From Gemmatimonadota bacterium (GTDB lineage Bacteria; Gemmatimonadota; Gemmatimonadetes; Gemmatimonadales; GWC2-71-9): DNA of 64,000 nucleotides. How positions within the stretch are numbered: the stretch's first letter is position 1; the number at the start of each line of letters is the position of its first letter. Position numbers and translations under genes: made by a program. Location of the stretch: NCBI GenBank assembly GCA_003221035.1, contig QHUB01000014.1, positions 1 through 64,000 of the forward strand. Reading direction: 5' to 3'. Shown here piece by piece: positions 57,523 to 64,000 of the stretch. Below the pieces are notes generated by a model that was not told the DNA's origin, searched no databases, and saw only the letters and a program-made list of their open reading frames with translations.

Positions 57523-58225
57523 CCCACCGCACTCCCGTCGAATCCGCGCAGAGCGCGTGCATACCCTGTTGTGCGATCGGCAGCGCGCGATCGCATCCTA
57601 ACGCGAGAAACGCCGCCGCCCAGGCATGGGCCGTCAGGCCGTCGTCCGCCAGGACCGTGACGGAGCGCGCGGCGCCATGCGGCGCGTTACGCTGCGACTG
57701 CGTCCGCACCGAGCCCCCCTGCAGATCGACCACGGCCAGCGTGCGCAATGTGTTGTCGGGATCGGGAACGCCGACGGCGCGGTGTGTGCCGCGGCCCGGA
57801 GGACCGAACCACGAGTACTGGCCTCCCAGATCGAGGAGCACGCTGTCGACGTCGCGGCCGAGGCCGAGCATCGCGCGATCGAGTGCGTATCCGGACGCGA
57901 GGCTGTCTGCGCGCAAGGTGATGCCGGTGCGGCGGCGGATCTCGGACCGCATCGAATCGATCGCGCGAATCGCCGCATGGCGCTGCATCAGCGAATCGAC
58001 GCGATCGACAGAGTCGTACGCCGCTTCGAGCGCGTGCGCCACGCGTATGCTGTCCGGTCCCCACCCGGCGGCGGACATCATCGTGCCGAGCGCCGGCCAA
58101 ACACGCGCGACGGCAGGCGGCGCGTCAGTGCGGCAAGTCCGGACCGCACCGGCCGCGCTCCCCGAAAGGGTCACGCAGAGGAAAAGATTGATTCTCAAGA
58201 TGGAGAGGTGAATATAGATGGCCAT
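57473..58225 (-). CDS. ApbE-like (FAD:protein FMN transferase) protein, reduced
   Basis: 250 residues with an N-terminal hydrophobic signal (ILRINLFLCVTLSGSAAGA). It carries ApbE landmarks: WPALGTMMSA near the start, RADSLASGYALDRA (homologues read KGYAVD), VLLDLGGQYSWFG, and the C-terminal block VTVLADDGLTAHAWAAAFLA where homologues have the Mg-binding T/D. The usual middle section with the Ser-Asn-rich FAD-binding motif (about 80-100 residues) is missing, and Lys of KGYAVD is Ser. It may be a degenerate or repurposed ApbE; flavinylation activity is doubtful. Its start overlaps that of the divergent histidine kinase by 8 bases (ATGGCCAT). Confidence 0.65.
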   Translation of the reverse strand: MAIYIHLSILRINLFLCVTLSGSAAGAVRTCRTDAPPAVARVWPALGTMMSAAGWGPDSIRVAHALEAAYDSVDRVDSLMQRHAAIRAIDSMRSEIRRRTGITLRADSLASGYALDRAMLGLGRDVDSVLLDLGGQYSWFGPPGRGTHRAVGVPDPDNTLRTLAVVDLQGGSVRTQSQRNAPHGAARSVTVLADDGLTAHAWAAAFLALGCDRALPIAQQGMHALCADSTGVRWATGLQNRVSLPAARAP

Positions 58226-60371
58226 GGACGTCCTGCTGCGACAATATCCACTCGCCTACACGACTGCCGGCGTCACGCTGGCGCTGGTGATCGTCGGCGT
58301 CGCGTTGTGGCGTCTGCGGCAGCGTCTGGTGAAGTCCGAGTTGGAGCGGCGCCGCGCCTCGGAGGAGCTGAATCGCAGGCTGTCCGAACTGTTTTCGCTG
58401 CAAGAGCTGTCGTACGTCCTGTCCGACTCGCTGGAGCTCGATCACATCGTCGCGCAGGTGGTGCGCTATGCGGTGCGGTTCCTCGACGCGCAGGGCGCGC
58501 TGCTCGCGCTGCTCGGTGAGGCGCCCCAGGACCCGCTCCAGGTAGCGGCCGCCGAGGGCACGCTCGCGCCCCTGCGCGGGCAGAGGATTCAGCGCGGAGA
58601 CGCGGGTCTGATCGGGCGGTCCACCGGGCACGAGCACCTCGAGCTGGTGCGCAACTCCGGCGCGGGGGCGGTCCCGACGCTGATTGCGGAAGGATTCGAG
58701 GCGGCCGCGGCCGCGGCGGTGCCGCTGCGCTCGCACGGGACCGTGATCGGCACCCTGATCATCACCGACCCCAGAGAAGGCGTATTCGTCCCCGAGGACA
58801 TTCGCCTGCTGTCGACACTCGCGACGCACGCGGCCGTCGTCATCGCGAACGCGCGCTTCTTCGAGATGGTGCGCCGCGCCAAGGAGCAATGGGAGACGGC
58901 GTTCGACGCGCTCAGCGAAGGCATTGCCGTCGTTGACGATGAGGGCCACGTGCGGCGCTCCAATCGCGCGCTGGCGAGCCTCCTGGGCATGCCGCTCCAG
59001 AACGTCGTCGGCGCGCGGCTCGGCGAGGCGCTGCTCGGCAACCCCGGCGTGCTGCACGAGCTCCTGGCGGCTACGCGCCGCGGCGAGCGCCCTGCCCCGC
59101 TGGTCGCGCGCTCCGAGCGCCTGAACCGGACGGTTCGCGTGAACGCCGCCCGCATTCCCGGCGCCGCCACCGAGCAGAGCACCGTGGTGATGGTCGAGGA
59201 TGTGACGGAGCAGCAAGCGCTCGAAACGCAGCTCGTGCAGAACGAAAAGCTCGCCGCCGTCGGCCAGCTCGTTTCCGGCGTGGCGCACGAGCTGAACAAT
59301 CCGCTGACCTCGATCGCGGGCCTCTCGGAGTTTCTGCTCGAGCAGAAGGAGCTGGGGAAGAAAGACCGCGGCCACCTGCAGGTGATTCACGAACAGGCGG
59401 AGCGCGCCGGGCGCATCGTGCGCAACCTGCTCACATTCGCCCGCAAAGGCTCGGCCGAGCGCGTGCCCGTCGACCTCAACGACGTGATCCGTCGCACGCT
59501 CCAGCTCACCGCGTACGACTTGAAGATGAAAGACGTCACGGTCGAGCGTGAGCTGAGTGGCGCGCTCCCCGAGGTGCTCGGCGACCGGCACGGCTTGCAG
59601 CAGGTCGTCCTCAATCTCGTGACCAATGCGGCGCAGGCAGTCTCGGAAAATCCGCGCGAGCGAATGCGCGAGATCACGATCTCGACCTGGTTCGACGGGC
59701 AGGTGCACCTGCGCGTCGCCGATACGGGCCCCGGCATTTCCGACGAGATCGCGCCGAGCATTTTCACGCCGTTTTTCACGACCAAAGAGCCCGGCAAGGG
59801 CACGGGGCTTGGCCTCTCGATCACCTATTCAATCGTGGAAAGCCATGGCGGGCAGATCACGCTCGAGCCTCGCACCGCCAGAGGCGGTGCGGCATTCCGG
59901 GTGGATTTCCCGCCCGCCCCGGCGGACGCGGTGCGGCCCGAGCTCACGCCCGTTCACGGGACCTCGATACCCAACGCGTCGCCCGGCGTGAAGCGCACCA
60001 TCCTGCTCGTCGACTCCGATCCCGCCGTGCAGCGCACGATCAAGGCCCTGTTCTCGGGCGACGGGCACGAGGTGGAAGTCGCCGGCGATCCGAAGCGCGG
60101 GCTCGAGCTCGCGCAGCGCGGGGGATTCGATCTCGTCATTACGGATGCGCGCGCGATGGCGCCGGGAAAGCGTGGGACGCTGCTGGCGGAGGAGCTGGTG
60201 GCGCGCATGCCGGCGTTACGGGAGCGCATCATCGTCGCCACCGGCGACGTGCGACCGGCGACCGAAGAGACGCTCGCGCGTCTCGGCGTGCGCTACGTGC
60301 GCAAGCCTTTCAACCTGCGGGATCTGCGTGTGGCCGCGGCGCGCTTGTGGGAAGCGACGGCGCTGTCGTAG
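58218..60371 (+). CDS. Hybrid sensor histidine kinase (GAF-PAS-HisKA-HATPase-receiver)
   Basis: 717 residues. One N-terminal membrane segment ([17 protein letters not shown]), then GAF (about 70-215), PAS (about 224-328, [15 protein letters not shown]), an NtrB-like HisKA with [20 protein letters not shown] near 342, a HATPase ([49 protein letters not shown]) and a C-terminal receiver (about 593-717, [10 protein letters not shown] with phospho-Asp in [12 protein letters not shown] and Lys in RKPF). No partner regulator is adjacent. AGAGGTG lies before the ATG at 58218. The 3' end overlaps the ATL gene by 79 bases. Confidence 0.93.
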
Positions 60372-60682
60372 GCTTCGGACGGCCATCCAAACGTCGAGAG
60401 ATTGACCGCGCCGCCGGGCGCGAAGCGCACGCCCTCGCGCAGCAACAGCGCGCGCTGCAACACCGCGCTGTGATCGTGTCCGGAAAATGAAATGCGGCCC
60501 GCCGCGTTGATGACGCGCCACCACGGCACATCATTGTCTTCGGGAAGCGCCGAGAGCGCCCAGCCGACGGTGCGCGCCGCGCCGGGCCGTCCCGCGAGCC
60601 GCGCCACGATCCCGTACGTCGCCACGCGTCCCTTGGGGATGTGACGGACCACGCGGTAGATCCGATGATAGAATGGATTCAC
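60293..60682 (-). CDS. Alkyltransferase-like protein (ATL, MGMT family without active Cys)
   Basis: 129 residues of the DNA-base-flipping MGMT family. The active-site PCHR of repair methyltransferases is replaced by PWWRVI, so it cannot accept alkyl groups; ATL proteins instead bind O6-alkylguanine and hand it to nucleotide-excision repair. Other features are YRVVRHIPKGRVATYGIVAR and RTVGWALSALPEDNDVPWW, then NAAGRIS. It starts with GTG 14 bases after the Nudix gene, in one minus-strand run with pilB. The last 26 codons overlap the kinase gene on the other strand and are less conserved-looking. Confidence 0.88.
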   Translation of the reverse strand: MNPFYHRIYRVVRHIPKGRVATYGIVARLAGRPGAARTVGWALSALPEDNDVPWWRVINAAGRISFSGHDHSAVLQRALLLREGVRFAPGGAVNLSTFGWPSEAYDSAVASHKRAAATRRSRRLKGLRT

Positions 60683-60696
60683 TTGGGAGCCTGCTA

Positions 60697-61122
60697 CTAG
60701 CTTACGCGCAGGACGTCTTCAAGCAAGCCTGCGTCGCCCCCCCCCACTATTGACAAAATGTCCTCCACTGCTCTCCGCTCTCTGGGCCAGGCAAACCGCT
60801 TGACGGCCTCGGCCGCGCTCAACCACTCCGCGCGATCGTGCTCCTCCGACAAGCGGACGCTCGCGGTCGGCGGCACGAACGCGGCGAACACGGGAATCAG
60901 CGCCATCTCGTTCGTGCGATGCTGATAGAATGCTTCCGTGCGACTGAGATTGTAGAATTTGTCCGGCACGAGTCCGGTCTCTTCCCGCAATTCGCGCAGC
61001 GACGCCTGCTCGGGGCGCTCCCCGGCTTCGATCGTGCCGTGAATGGTTTCCCACGAGCCGATGTTGCGTCCCGCGGTGCGGCGCAAGGTGAGGATCTGCA
61101 GGCGCTCGCCGGCGCCGCGCAC
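60697..61122 (-). CDS. Nudix hydrolase
   Basis: Hydrolyses a nucleoside diphosphate linked to another moiety; the substrate cannot be named (the size suggests dATP or dihydroneopterin-triphosphate types). The full Nudix box GTIEAGERPEQASLRELREE, then TGL, is present. The first canonical start is GTG at 61122, giving 141 residues, but the expected first strand (TTVRVAFVDTYAV) lies upstream in the same open frame, back to CTG at 61161, which overlaps the pilB stop as CTGA; the real start may be CTG. A run of nine G on the coding strand (60739-60747 as C in the listed strand) lies about 16 codons before the end. Confidence 0.85.
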   Translation of the reverse strand: MRGAGERLQILTLRRTAGRNIGSWETIHGTIEAGERPEQASLRELREETGLVPDKFYNLSRTEAFYQHRTNEMALIPVFAAFVPPTASVRLSEEHDRAEWLSAAEAVKRFAWPRERRAVEDILSIVGGGDAGLLEDVLRVS

Positions 61123-61157: not shown

Positions 61158-63431
61158 TCAGCGGCGGCGGCCGAGAACGGCTTCGAGTCGCGCCGAGAGC
61201 GCGCGGGCGCGGAACGGCTTGGTGAGAAAATCGTCGGCGCCGAGCTCGAAGACGCGCACTTCGTTGTCTTCGTCCCCCTTCGCCGTCAGGACGATCACCG
61301 GAATGCCGGCGGTGGCGGGCCGCGAGCGGAGATGGGACAACACGCCGTAGCCGTCGAGACCGGGAAGATTCAGGTCGAGGACGATGATGTCGGGACCGAC
61401 GCGGTCCACCTGGTCGAGCGCCTGGACGCCGTCGCGGGCCTCGGTGACGACATACCCATCGCGCTCGAGCAGGTCGCGCATCACCTTGCGCAAGCTATCC
61501 TCATCGTCCACCAGCAGTACCTTCGAGGCCGGCAAACCGTGCGCACCCGAGCGCCGCGCCGGCGGCACGTGCTCCTCGAGCAGATCGAAATGCGTCGAGA
61601 CGGTGGCGGGAACGGCGGTCTCGGGCGGAATCGTCACCGTGCCGGTGAACCGCTGCGCGTCGGACATCCCGGAGTTACGCCCCGGCCCGGAGACGCCCTT
61701 CCCCGCCGGAGGGGAGCCGGGCTTCTCGCCATACCCATCCGCCTCTGATTCGTCGGCCGGGATGTCCACCACGCGCGTCAGCTCGTCGAGCGTGGATTCG
61801 CCCCGCGTGACGTGCGCGAGCCCCGAGTCCCACAGCCCCTTCATCCCGCCGCGCCGCGCCGACTCGGCGATCCGATCGGCGGCCTCGCCCGCGGCGATCC
61901 GCCGCTCGAGCTCCGGCGTCATCGTCAGAATCTCGAGAATCGAGAAGCGGCCGCGGTAGCCCGTCATCGCGCAGTCGGGACAGCCGCCGGCGCGATACAG
62001 CGGCGTGCCCTGGGGAATCCAGCGGCGCAGGCGCTCGGGCGGCGCTTCCATCCACACCTCTTTGCAGGTCGGACACAGCTTCCGCATCAGCCGCTGGGCG
62101 ACGACCCCGCGCAGCGAGGCCGCGATCTTGTAGGCCTCGACGCCGATGTCCACGAGGCGTGTGACGGCATTGGCGGCGTCGTTGGTGTGCAGGGTGGAAA
62201 GCACCAGGTGCCCGGTCAGCGATGCCTGGACCGCGATCTGCGCCGTTTCCTTGTCGCGGATCTCGCCGACGAGGACCACGTTCGGGTCCTGCCGCAGGAT
62301 CGACCGCAGCGCCGCTGCGAAGGTCAGGCCTGCCTTCTCTTGCACCTGGACCTGTACGATGCCCTGCATCCGGTATTCGACCGGGTCCTCCACCGTCACG
62401 ATGTTCACGCCTTCGCTCTTGATCTGATTGATGCAGGAGTAGAGCGTCGTCGTCTTGCCGGAGCCCGTCGGGCCGGTGACGAGTAAAATGCCTTCGTGGT
62501 TCTCGAGCAGCCGCTTGATCGCTTCGGCTTCGCCGGCGTTGAGGCCGAGCGAGTCGAGCGACTTGACGGTCGCGCGGGAATCGAGAATGCGGATGACGAC
62601 TTTTTCGCCGAGCTGAGCGGGGAGCGTCGAGACGCGCAGGTCGATCGGCTGGCCGTTGACCGCCACGCGCGCCCGGCCGTCCTGCGGCCGCAACCGGTCG
62701 GCGATGTCGAGTGACGACATGATCTTGATGCGCGAGATCAGCGGCAATCCGGCCTGGCGCGGGATCTTCATGACCTGGCGGAGCACGCCGTCGATGCGGT
62801 AGCGGACCGCGACGCCGCCCTCCTCGGGCTCGACGTGGATGTCCGACGCGCGCGACAGGATGCCCTCGGAGATGATCATGTCCACGAGCCGGACAACCGG
62901 CTTCTGCTGGGCGTCCGCCTCGGTGATTTCATCGACCGGCGTGTCGGGCAGGGTCTGCAAGATGTCGGCGTCGCCCATGCCCTCGAGCAATTTGTCGATC
63001 GCTTTGTCGGGCTTATACAGCTCGTCCAGCTTCTCGCTGATCTTGGAGGGCGCGAGCAGGAACAGCCGGATTTCGCGGGCCGTGTTGAAGGCGAGCGCCT
63101 TCTCCGCATCGAGATCCAGGGGATTGGCGGTGCCGATCTCGAGGTACGAATCGGTGAGCCGCAGCGGCAGCACGTGGTGGCGCCGCGCCAGCTGCTCGGG
63201 CACGCCGTCGCGCGCGATTTTATCGATCTTGGAGACGTCGGCAATCTTGAGGCGGAAGCGGTGGGACAGCTTGTCGACGATCTCGGCATCGGTCGCCAGC
63301 TTCTCGGCGACGACGCACTCCCACAGCGTGCGGCCGGACTCCGCCTTCCCGCGCAGCTCCTGGAGCCGCTCGGGGGTCAGGCCCTCCACGGACTGGGCCA
63401 ACCATTCGTCGGGGAACTGAGTCACCGGCAT
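61158..63431 (-). CDS. pilB: PilB/GspE-type secretion ATPase fused to a response-regulator receiver
   Basis: Traffic ATPase that powers type IV pilus extension or type II secretion. 757 residues: an MshEN-type N-terminal domain, an ATPase core with Walker A VTGPTGSGKTTTLYS near 320, Asp box TVEDPVEYRMQGI, Walker B PNVVLVGEIRDKETAQIA, His box GHLVLSTLHTNDAANAV and zinc motif CPTCKEVW with CPDCAMTGY. After a Gly/Pro-rich linker (about 560-630) a complete CheY-like receiver follows (VLLVDDEDS, phospho-Asp in IIVLDLNLPGLDG, LTAKG, TKPF). Receiver fusions to PilB are unusual. pilD is at 11316-12086; no other pilus gene is in view. Confidence 0.93.
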   Translation of the reverse strand: MPVTQFPDEWLAQSVEGLTPERLQELRGKAESGRTLWECVVAEKLATDAEIVDKLSHRFRLKIADVSKIDKIARDGVPEQLARRHHVLPLRLTDSYLEIGTANPLDLDAEKALAFNTAREIRLFLLAPSKISEKLDELYKPDKAIDKLLEGMGDADILQTLPDTPVDEITEADAQQKPVVRLVDMIISEGILSRASDIHVEPEEGGVAVRYRIDGVLRQVMKIPRQAGLPLISRIKIMSSLDIADRLRPQDGRARVAVNGQPIDLRVSTLPAQLGEKVVIRILDSRATVKSLDSLGLNAGEAEAIKRLLENHEGILLVTGPTGSGKTTTLYSCINQIKSEGVNIVTVEDPVEYRMQGIVQVQVQEKAGLTFAAALRSILRQDPNVVLVGEIRDKETAQIAVQASLTGHLVLSTLHTNDAANAVTRLVDIGVEAYKIAASLRGVVAQRLMRKLCPTCKEVWMEAPPERLRRWIPQGTPLYRAGGCPDCAMTGYRGRFSILEILTMTPELERRIAAGEAADRIAESARRGGMKGLWDSGLAHVTRGESTLDELTRVVDIPADESEADGYGEKPGSPPAGKGVSGPGRNSGMSDAQRFTGTVTIPPETAVPATVSTHFDLLEEHVPPARRSGAHGLPASKVLLVDDEDSLRKVMRDLLERDGYVVTEARDGVQALDQVDRVGPDIIVLDLNLPGLDGYGVLSHLRSRPATAGIPVIVLTAKGDEDNEVRVFELGADDFLTKPFRARALSARLEAVLGRRR

Positions 63432-63481: not shown

Positions 63482-64000
63482 TCACAAAATGTCCCAAAAA
63501 TCACGCGTGACGTCGAAGGTGACGTGCAGATTGCGGCTCTGGACGCCATAGCCCGCTTCGAGCCGGAACACCCCCAGCCATTCGGCACCGAGTCCCACGG
63601 TCATGCGAGTCCCGGGGGTGGCCAGCCACGGCGTGAATATGAACGGCTCGGCCGCCCATCCGGTCGCGACGTACGGCGCGAGCGTAAGTGTGCCCGGCGT
63701 GCGGGCCGGGCCAACGCCCACGCTGAAGAAGGGCACCGGCACGCGCCATTCGACATGCACGAGGGCGGCGCGCTTACCGCCCCACTCGCGGAATTCATCC
63801 CCGAGCAATGTCGCGCGCCCGCCGAGGACAAAGATCCGATGCTCCGGCAGCCTGTCACTTCCGAGTCCGAACTCGATCCGAGTCAATAACCGCGTGGATC
63901 CCACGGGGACCAACACATGGCCGTTGCCGCTGAAGCGCAGGTAATGCTGGCCGACCTCGAGCGTCGTTTCCCCGGCGACGTCGCGCCGCACCGCAAAGCC
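63482..64000 (-). CDS. C-terminal part of an outer-membrane beta-barrel-like protein (truncated by window edge)
   Basis: The frame is open to base 64000, so the N-terminus lies outside; about 172 codons are visible. The sequence shows alternating hydrophobic strands with turns (HRIFVLGGRATLLGDEF, LTLAPYVATGWAAEPF, GLGAEWLGVFRLEAGYG, LHVTFDVTRDFWDIL) consistent with the end of a surface-antigen/BamA-like or similar barrel. The last residue is Leu, not the usual Phe. It lies 50 bases upstream of pilB on the same strand. The family is uncertain. Confidence 0.55.
   Translation of the reverse strand, partial: GFAVRRDVAGETTLEVGQHYLRFSGNGHVLVPVGSTRLLTRIEFGLGSDRLPEHRIFVLGGRATLLGDEFREWGGKRAALVHVEWRVPVPFFSVGVGPARTPGTLTLAPYVATGWAAEPFIFTPWLATPGTRMTVGLGAEWLGVFRLEAGYGVQSRNLHVTFDVTRDFWDIL

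Follow-up and report, generated by a model that had tools for sequence, protein, structure and literature searches.

Pilus motors are usually controlled by separate proteins or by c-di-GMP. One locus in the window (the whole stretch of Gemmatimonadota DNA analysed here, 64,000 nucleotides) raises the question of whether such a motor may be switched through a domain of its own: an uninterrupted ORF of 757 aa on the minus strand (61158-63431) encodes an MshEN-T2SSE motor ATPase, a linker and a CheY/PhoB-type receiver. The sequence-only reading of this locus had proposed that a motor ATPase is fused to a complete CheY-like receiver, and the proposal was borne out by the single ORF, by the Pfam matches and by the presence of all residues of the receiver site. 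The fusion and its parts are as follows.

61158..63431, minus strand: the MshEN-T2SSE-REC fusion ATPase, a single ORF, by Pfam and NCBIfam matches and by relatives in the phylum
63003..63230, minus strand: MshEN domain, residues 68-143 (PF05157, E 8.5e-15)
61773..62912, minus strand: T2SSE motor ATPase domain, residues 174-553 (PF00437, E 9.7e-133; Foldseek matches PilB/PilF/GspE)
62451..62474, minus strand: Walker A motif GPTGSGKT, residues 320-327, invariant in 68/68 fusions except at T327
61971..62075, minus strand: zinc tetracysteine motif CxxC...CxxC (C453/C456/C484/C487), each position kept in 67/68 fusions
61548..61733, minus strand: predicted flexible linker, residues 567-628 (AlphaFold2 pLDDT about 36-46)
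61185..61520, minus strand: CheY/PhoB-type receiver, residues 638-749 (PF00072, E 2.1e-32)
61374..61376, minus strand: predicted phospho-acceptor Asp686, present in 65/68 fusions and 56/56 syntenic orthologues

The ATPase part scores 442.8 bits for the T2SSE family (PF00437), against a cut-off of 24.9 bits, and among 68 non-redundant fusions its Walker A, Asp box, Walker B and His box show little or no variation (residue 327 of Walker A is T in 67 and S in 1). Its nearest solved structures by sequence are PilB, GspE and PilF; a Foldseek search with an AlphaFold2 model of the fusion, built on 51 relatives, returned structures of the same three proteins. The ATPase part and the receiver are well folded in the model, with pLDDT >90 for most residues (about 93-97 in the receiver), and residues 567-570 and 573-628 have pLDDT <50. 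The linker is about 60 residues long, ranges from 11 to 90 residues among relatives with a mean identity of 19%, and is, as modelled, a disordered and flexible tether between ATPase and receiver. The N-terminal region is a member of the MshEN family (PF05157), for which MshE-type c-di-GMP binding motifs have been defined as RLGxx(LVI)(LVI)xxG...LxxxLxxQ (PMC10333796). By inspection, RLG and the final Q are absent both from the N-terminus of the fusion, ahead of its MshEN match, and from the 68-sequence consensus, and we rejected c-di-GMP binding by this region on that ground; the canonical PilB of the window's genome retains the motif as KLGEILV...EQ.

The receiver is a member of the PF00072 family, finds its best PDB receiver match by sequence in PhoB, and carries the acidic pair D642/D643, the phospho-Asp D686, T716 and K738. 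With D or E accepted as the first residue of the acidic pair, and either T or S at 716, 65 of the 68 non-redundant fusions have a complete site, as does each of the 56 non-redundant syntenic orthologues. In comparisons with four relatives, dN/dS was 0.010-0.049 in the receiver; the ranges elsewhere were 0.024-0.094 (ATPase), 0.13-0.34 (MshEN) and 0.28-0.59 (linker), which makes the receiver the part of the protein under the tightest constraint. Its β4-α4 loop, α4, β5 and β5-α5 loop are conserved at 0.89-0.95, equal to the active-site loops and above α1/α2, a pattern that would be expected of a functional switch whose docking face is fixed.

An assembly error or a read-through, against which the sequence-only reading had warned, is excluded, and a chance ORF likewise: the window does come from a 113-contig assembly and a few relatives are frameshifted, but the fusion recurs in the phylum and is under strong purifying selection over both domains. 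Among the matches listed, the alignment runs through the receiver in 52 of 150 Gemmatimonadota genomes, and a separate scan of GTDB contigs gave about 30 Gemmatimonadota fusion records, some of them probably from the same organisms as the 150-genome sample. The frameshifted relatives (L024, L036, L037 and L044) look like MAG errors or decay rather than a clean two-gene split, because their breaks lie at differing places, some of them within the ATPase domain. The MshEN-T2SSE-REC fusion is real, ancient and strongly conserved in Gemmatimonadota. A search for the same fusion in 20 genomes from other phyla gave no alignment that extends into REC. Among 297 Desulfobacterota genomes, two have C-terminal receiver fusions (L182:1420-3813 and L186:1477-3717); these lie outside the Gemmatimonadota REC clade, on long branches, and their placement suggests, with low certainty, an independent origin. 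L186 starts KLGEILIEAGLIQ..., which resembles an intact c-di-GMP binding motif; in this respect it differs from the fusion of Gemmatimonadota.

Which motor, then, has acquired the receiver? The earlier description of the ATPase as a full PilB/GspE holds for its domain content and fails at the level of NCBI equivalogs: the fusion scores 521.9 bits for PilB (TIGR02538, cut-off 675.65), 558.3 bits for GspE (TIGR02533, cut-off 630.25), which is its best NCBIfam score, and 468.6 bits for TfpB (NF053534, cut-off 850). The window's genome has a canonical PilB elsewhere, a 620-aa ORF that scores 761.6 bits and passes the TIGR02538 cut-off of 675.65. Its gene, pilT and the first part of pilC occupy, in this order, the end of contig C34; the end of contig C69 carries the remainder of pilC, together with PilS/PilR-like genes, PilM and the sole secretin of the genome. 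We considered and rejected the presence of two platform proteins, as the two T2SSF matches are the halves of this single pilC at contig ends. No T4P genes were found in the flanks of the fusion that were examined; pilBTC lies on C34 and C69 instead.

In the ATPase-core tree the Gemmatimonadota fusions form one group (SH-aLRT 95), apart from the canonical PilB of this and other phyla, and on this grouping REC probably joined the ATPase once in the lineage. The sole exception, on a long branch, is L130:6626-9343 (plus strand), a 905-aa protein with a degenerate receiver, its phospho site lost, and an added C-terminal GAF domain. The fusion is an orphan second PilB-like motor ATPase in a clade of its own, separate from the PilB of the same genome. 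It shares with PilB (TIGR02538; PDB 5tsh, 5zfr, 6olj), its best structural neighbours, the MshEN-like N-terminus, the N2D/CTD motor domain, the Walker A/B, Asp and His boxes and the zinc tetracysteine; it differs from PilB in its separate clade, in its position outside the pil cluster and in the added C-terminal receiver. GspE (TIGR02533; PDB 1p9r, 4pht) has the same fold, with about 48% identity between the fusion and EpsE over the core (Foldseek match), whereas the fusion has the added receiver and no T2SS platform locus was found in the window's genome. It is very improbable that the fusion serves a type II secretion system as its ATPase, as its top NCBIfam score (558 bits for TIGR02533) might suggest: this score is below the 630-bit cut-off for GspE, and relatives with T2SS-like loci have a separate ATPase there (in G002, contig C18, T2SSE at 401710, T2SSF at 401117 and a secretin at 402886). 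For the window's genome, with a single secretin (in the cluster with pilM) and a single platform, we rejected this assignment.

The surroundings of the fusion bear on both the fate of the receiver and the source of its phosphoryl group. Four neighbouring genes in the window are relevant.

63482..64000, minus strand: 3' part of a DUF5686/Omp85-like outer-membrane gene upstream of the fusion (weak Pfam matches), a conserved neighbour
60697..61122, minus strand: Nudix hydrolase, 35 nt downstream of the fusion (PF00293), a conserved neighbour
60293..60682, minus strand: gene with an MGMT-like DNA-binding domain (PF01035)
58218..60371, plus strand: hybrid histidine kinase GAF-PAS-HisKA-HATPase-REC (Pfam), a candidate donor

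A block common across the order consists of a divergent FHA-GAF-nucleotide cyclase gene, the DUF5686/Omp85-like gene, the fusion, Nudix, EngB, ClpX and ClpP; in the loci examined the surroundings are GlmS/Maf/cyclase/OMP/ClpX, with no T4P gene beside the fusion. L125:7042-8664, just past the right end of the window, encodes the FHA-GAF-class III nucleotide cyclase that is the conserved divergent upstream neighbour.

The receiver is absent in part of one family. In eight retrieved loci (L129, L132, L134, L154 and L167-L170), a Nudix hydrolase whose Nudix box is intact is joined to the ATPase where REC would otherwise be, and in L133, L162-L164 and L171 the tail is truncated or absent. The ATPase-to-Nudix fusion arose at least twice, independently, on the ATPase-core tree; after what was probably a single fusion event, REC was lost several times and was replaced by Nudix twice or more. 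Given that the Nudix gene lies 35 nt downstream on the same strand, loss of the receiver together with removal of the intergenic stop would yield such an ATPase-Nudix fusion.

The hybrid kinase at 58218, which had been put forward as the phosphodonor, is convergent to the fusion and two genes away from it. It is a neighbour of the fusion in 20 relatives, all from one family of the order; 12 relatives whose flank reaches clpX are without it, and their receiver is complete wherever it was read through. The kinase is thus not a general donor, and it may serve, as a weak candidate, within its own family. Distant paralogues also adjoin two-component genes: L126 and L161 have an adjoining REC-GGDEF gene with a 4-nt overlap, and L135 and L136 have stand-alone CheY-like receiver genes nearby. 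This adjacency supports a link between the wider family and phospho-signalling. At L137:5331-6101 (plus strand), a 256-aa MshEN-REC protein without an ATPase is encoded upstream of a fusion paralogue, beside an HK-REC-Hpt gene.

T2SSE ATPases work on GspF/PilC-type platforms. The window's genome has one canonical PilB, PilT, one PilC, one secretin and no second platform, and two T2SSF matches, i.e. one platform, were found in each of G012, G075, G132, G027, G101, G115 and G068. As the fusion has neither a platform nor a secretin of its own, it must share PilC if it drives a filament. Eight genomes of family f5 (G033, G081, G084, G102, G109, G117, G121 and G131) have no secretin, have at most a weak, partial T2SSF match, and lack the fusion family; same-genus piliated relatives have the fusion (G133 vs. 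G131, G115 vs. G117, and G135 vs. G081). This co-loss is not significant by itself (8/27 vs. 0/8, one-sided p about 0.09 by hand calculation). In six f5 genomes that have neither a secretin nor T2SSF, T2SSE proteins are missing altogether. G015, which is 99% complete, has an intact fusion and a broken pilC, and pilB, pilT and a secretin were not found in it. At L142:9778-12921 of this genome, pilC is truncated, and HTH mobile-element-like and Fic-like ORFs stand where the 5' part of pilC, pilT and pilB would be expected. Because a remnant of pilC persists, G015 suggests a recent loss of the pilus; alternatively, it may be a sign of another function. A further T2SSE-domain protein, of 529 aa, is encoded at L003:1231-2820 (minus strand); its N-terminal part matches no Pfam family, and T2SSE ORFs of similar size occur in many Gemmatimonadota genomes, including G015 with no intact pilus cluster.

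We propose that the fusion is a phosphorylation-gated auxiliary extension ATPase that shares the T4aP machine with PilB, and we give this reading a probability of roughly 0.5. Phospho-control of the motor is plausible because the fusion is real, the receiver is competent and selection is strong. In the mechanism that we have in mind, a histidine kinase would phosphorylate Asp686; the receiver, on its flexible linker, would contact the ATPase ring or an adjacent receiver through its conserved α4-β5-α5 face; this binding would alter motor assembly, ATPase rate or docking on the cell's single T4aP PilC platform; and a two-component signal would gate pilus extension alongside the unregulated PilB. 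Here we infer the phosphorylation, the common use of PilC and the sign of the effect, which could be activation or inhibition. Three observations count against this reading: T4P genes were not seen beside the fusion in the loci examined; G015 keeps the fusion, which is not decisive given its pilC remnant; and the ATPase persists in several relatives after REC was lost or replaced by Nudix, so that it can act without REC.

A different possibility is that the fusion has a role independent of the pilus, such as building the envelope together with the DUF5686/Omp85-like protein and the Nudix enzyme. The OMP and Nudix genes keep their place beside the fusion, two independent Nudix fusions arose, and G015 retains the fusion with no intact pilus machine; all of this is consistent with such a role. 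We nevertheless consider it quite unlikely, since the platforms on which T2SSE ATPases work are of the GspF/PilC type, T2SSE protein is wholly absent from the six f5 genomes without secretin and T2SSF, and G015 may represent a recent loss.

Less readily set aside, and still unlikely in our view, is a regulatory ATPase that polymerises no pilin of its own: a phospho-controlled signalling protein or an antagonist of PilB, which could act by competing for PilC, by forming mixed rings with PilB or by reporting to surface-matrix pathways. A precedent is PilB of Myxococcus xanthus, which acts as an exopolysaccharide signalling protein (PMC5544727). The signalling genes near the fusion (the hybrid kinase and the FHA-GAF-nucleotide cyclase) point the same way, as do those adjoining its paralogues (REC-GGDEF in L126 and L161, CheY-like in L135 and L136, HK-REC-Hpt and MshEN-REC in L137) and the continued presence of the canonical PilB in the genome. 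However, neither the ATPase motifs nor the zinc motif have been lost, and pure signalling would not obviously need a full motor.

For the reading that we prefer, a gated second extension motor, there are partial parallels in known systems. TfpB of Acinetobacter baylyi, a second extension motor for one T4aP, is likewise an extra, phylogenetically distinct extension ATPase beside the canonical PilB, whereas no receiver is described for TfpB in the part of the source used here (PMC8213720). EmvR of Xanthomonas oryzae, a response regulator with a single domain, binds to PilB and reduces the ATPase activity of the motor by about 40%, an effect that requires Asp15, Asp59 and Thr87 (PMC11973254). Like EmvR, the receiver of the fusion is predicted to be phosphorylatable and to target a PilB-type ATPase directly; the target of EmvR, reached in trans, is the canonical PilB, whereas the receiver of the fusion is covalently part of a separate motor. 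In the FimX-PilZ-PilB system (PMC8389850, PMC11656802), an extension motor is under post-translational control by signalling domains, as we propose for the fusion, but the components are separate proteins driven by c-di-GMP and the REC of FimX is without the phospho-Asp. The fusion joins in one protein the idea of a receiver acting on PilB, as in EmvR, and that of a second motor, as in TfpB. Both domain families and the control of PilB by REC in trans are already known. In the open-access literature we found no description of a PilB/GspE-receiver fusion, nor of a covalent fusion within an orphan clade of motors, of its phylum-wide conservation or of the REC-to-Nudix swap; subscription papers and older response-regulator censuses may mention such a fusion.

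In conclusion, a fusion that is real, ancient and strongly conserved argues for direct two-component control of a surface-pilus motor. More tentatively, it is possible that Gemmatimonadota possess a widespread second motor that would be phospho-switched by its own domain and would share PilC with a constitutive motor; the Nudix swap would then mark an exchangeable input slot, in which a nucleotide-sensing or hydrolysing domain replaced the phospho-input in some lineages. With a receiver that is covalently attached and strongly conserved, direct phospho-control of a motor can be tested within one polypeptide, with no search for a partner, and the fusion bears on why many genomes retain two extension ATPases per pilus machine.
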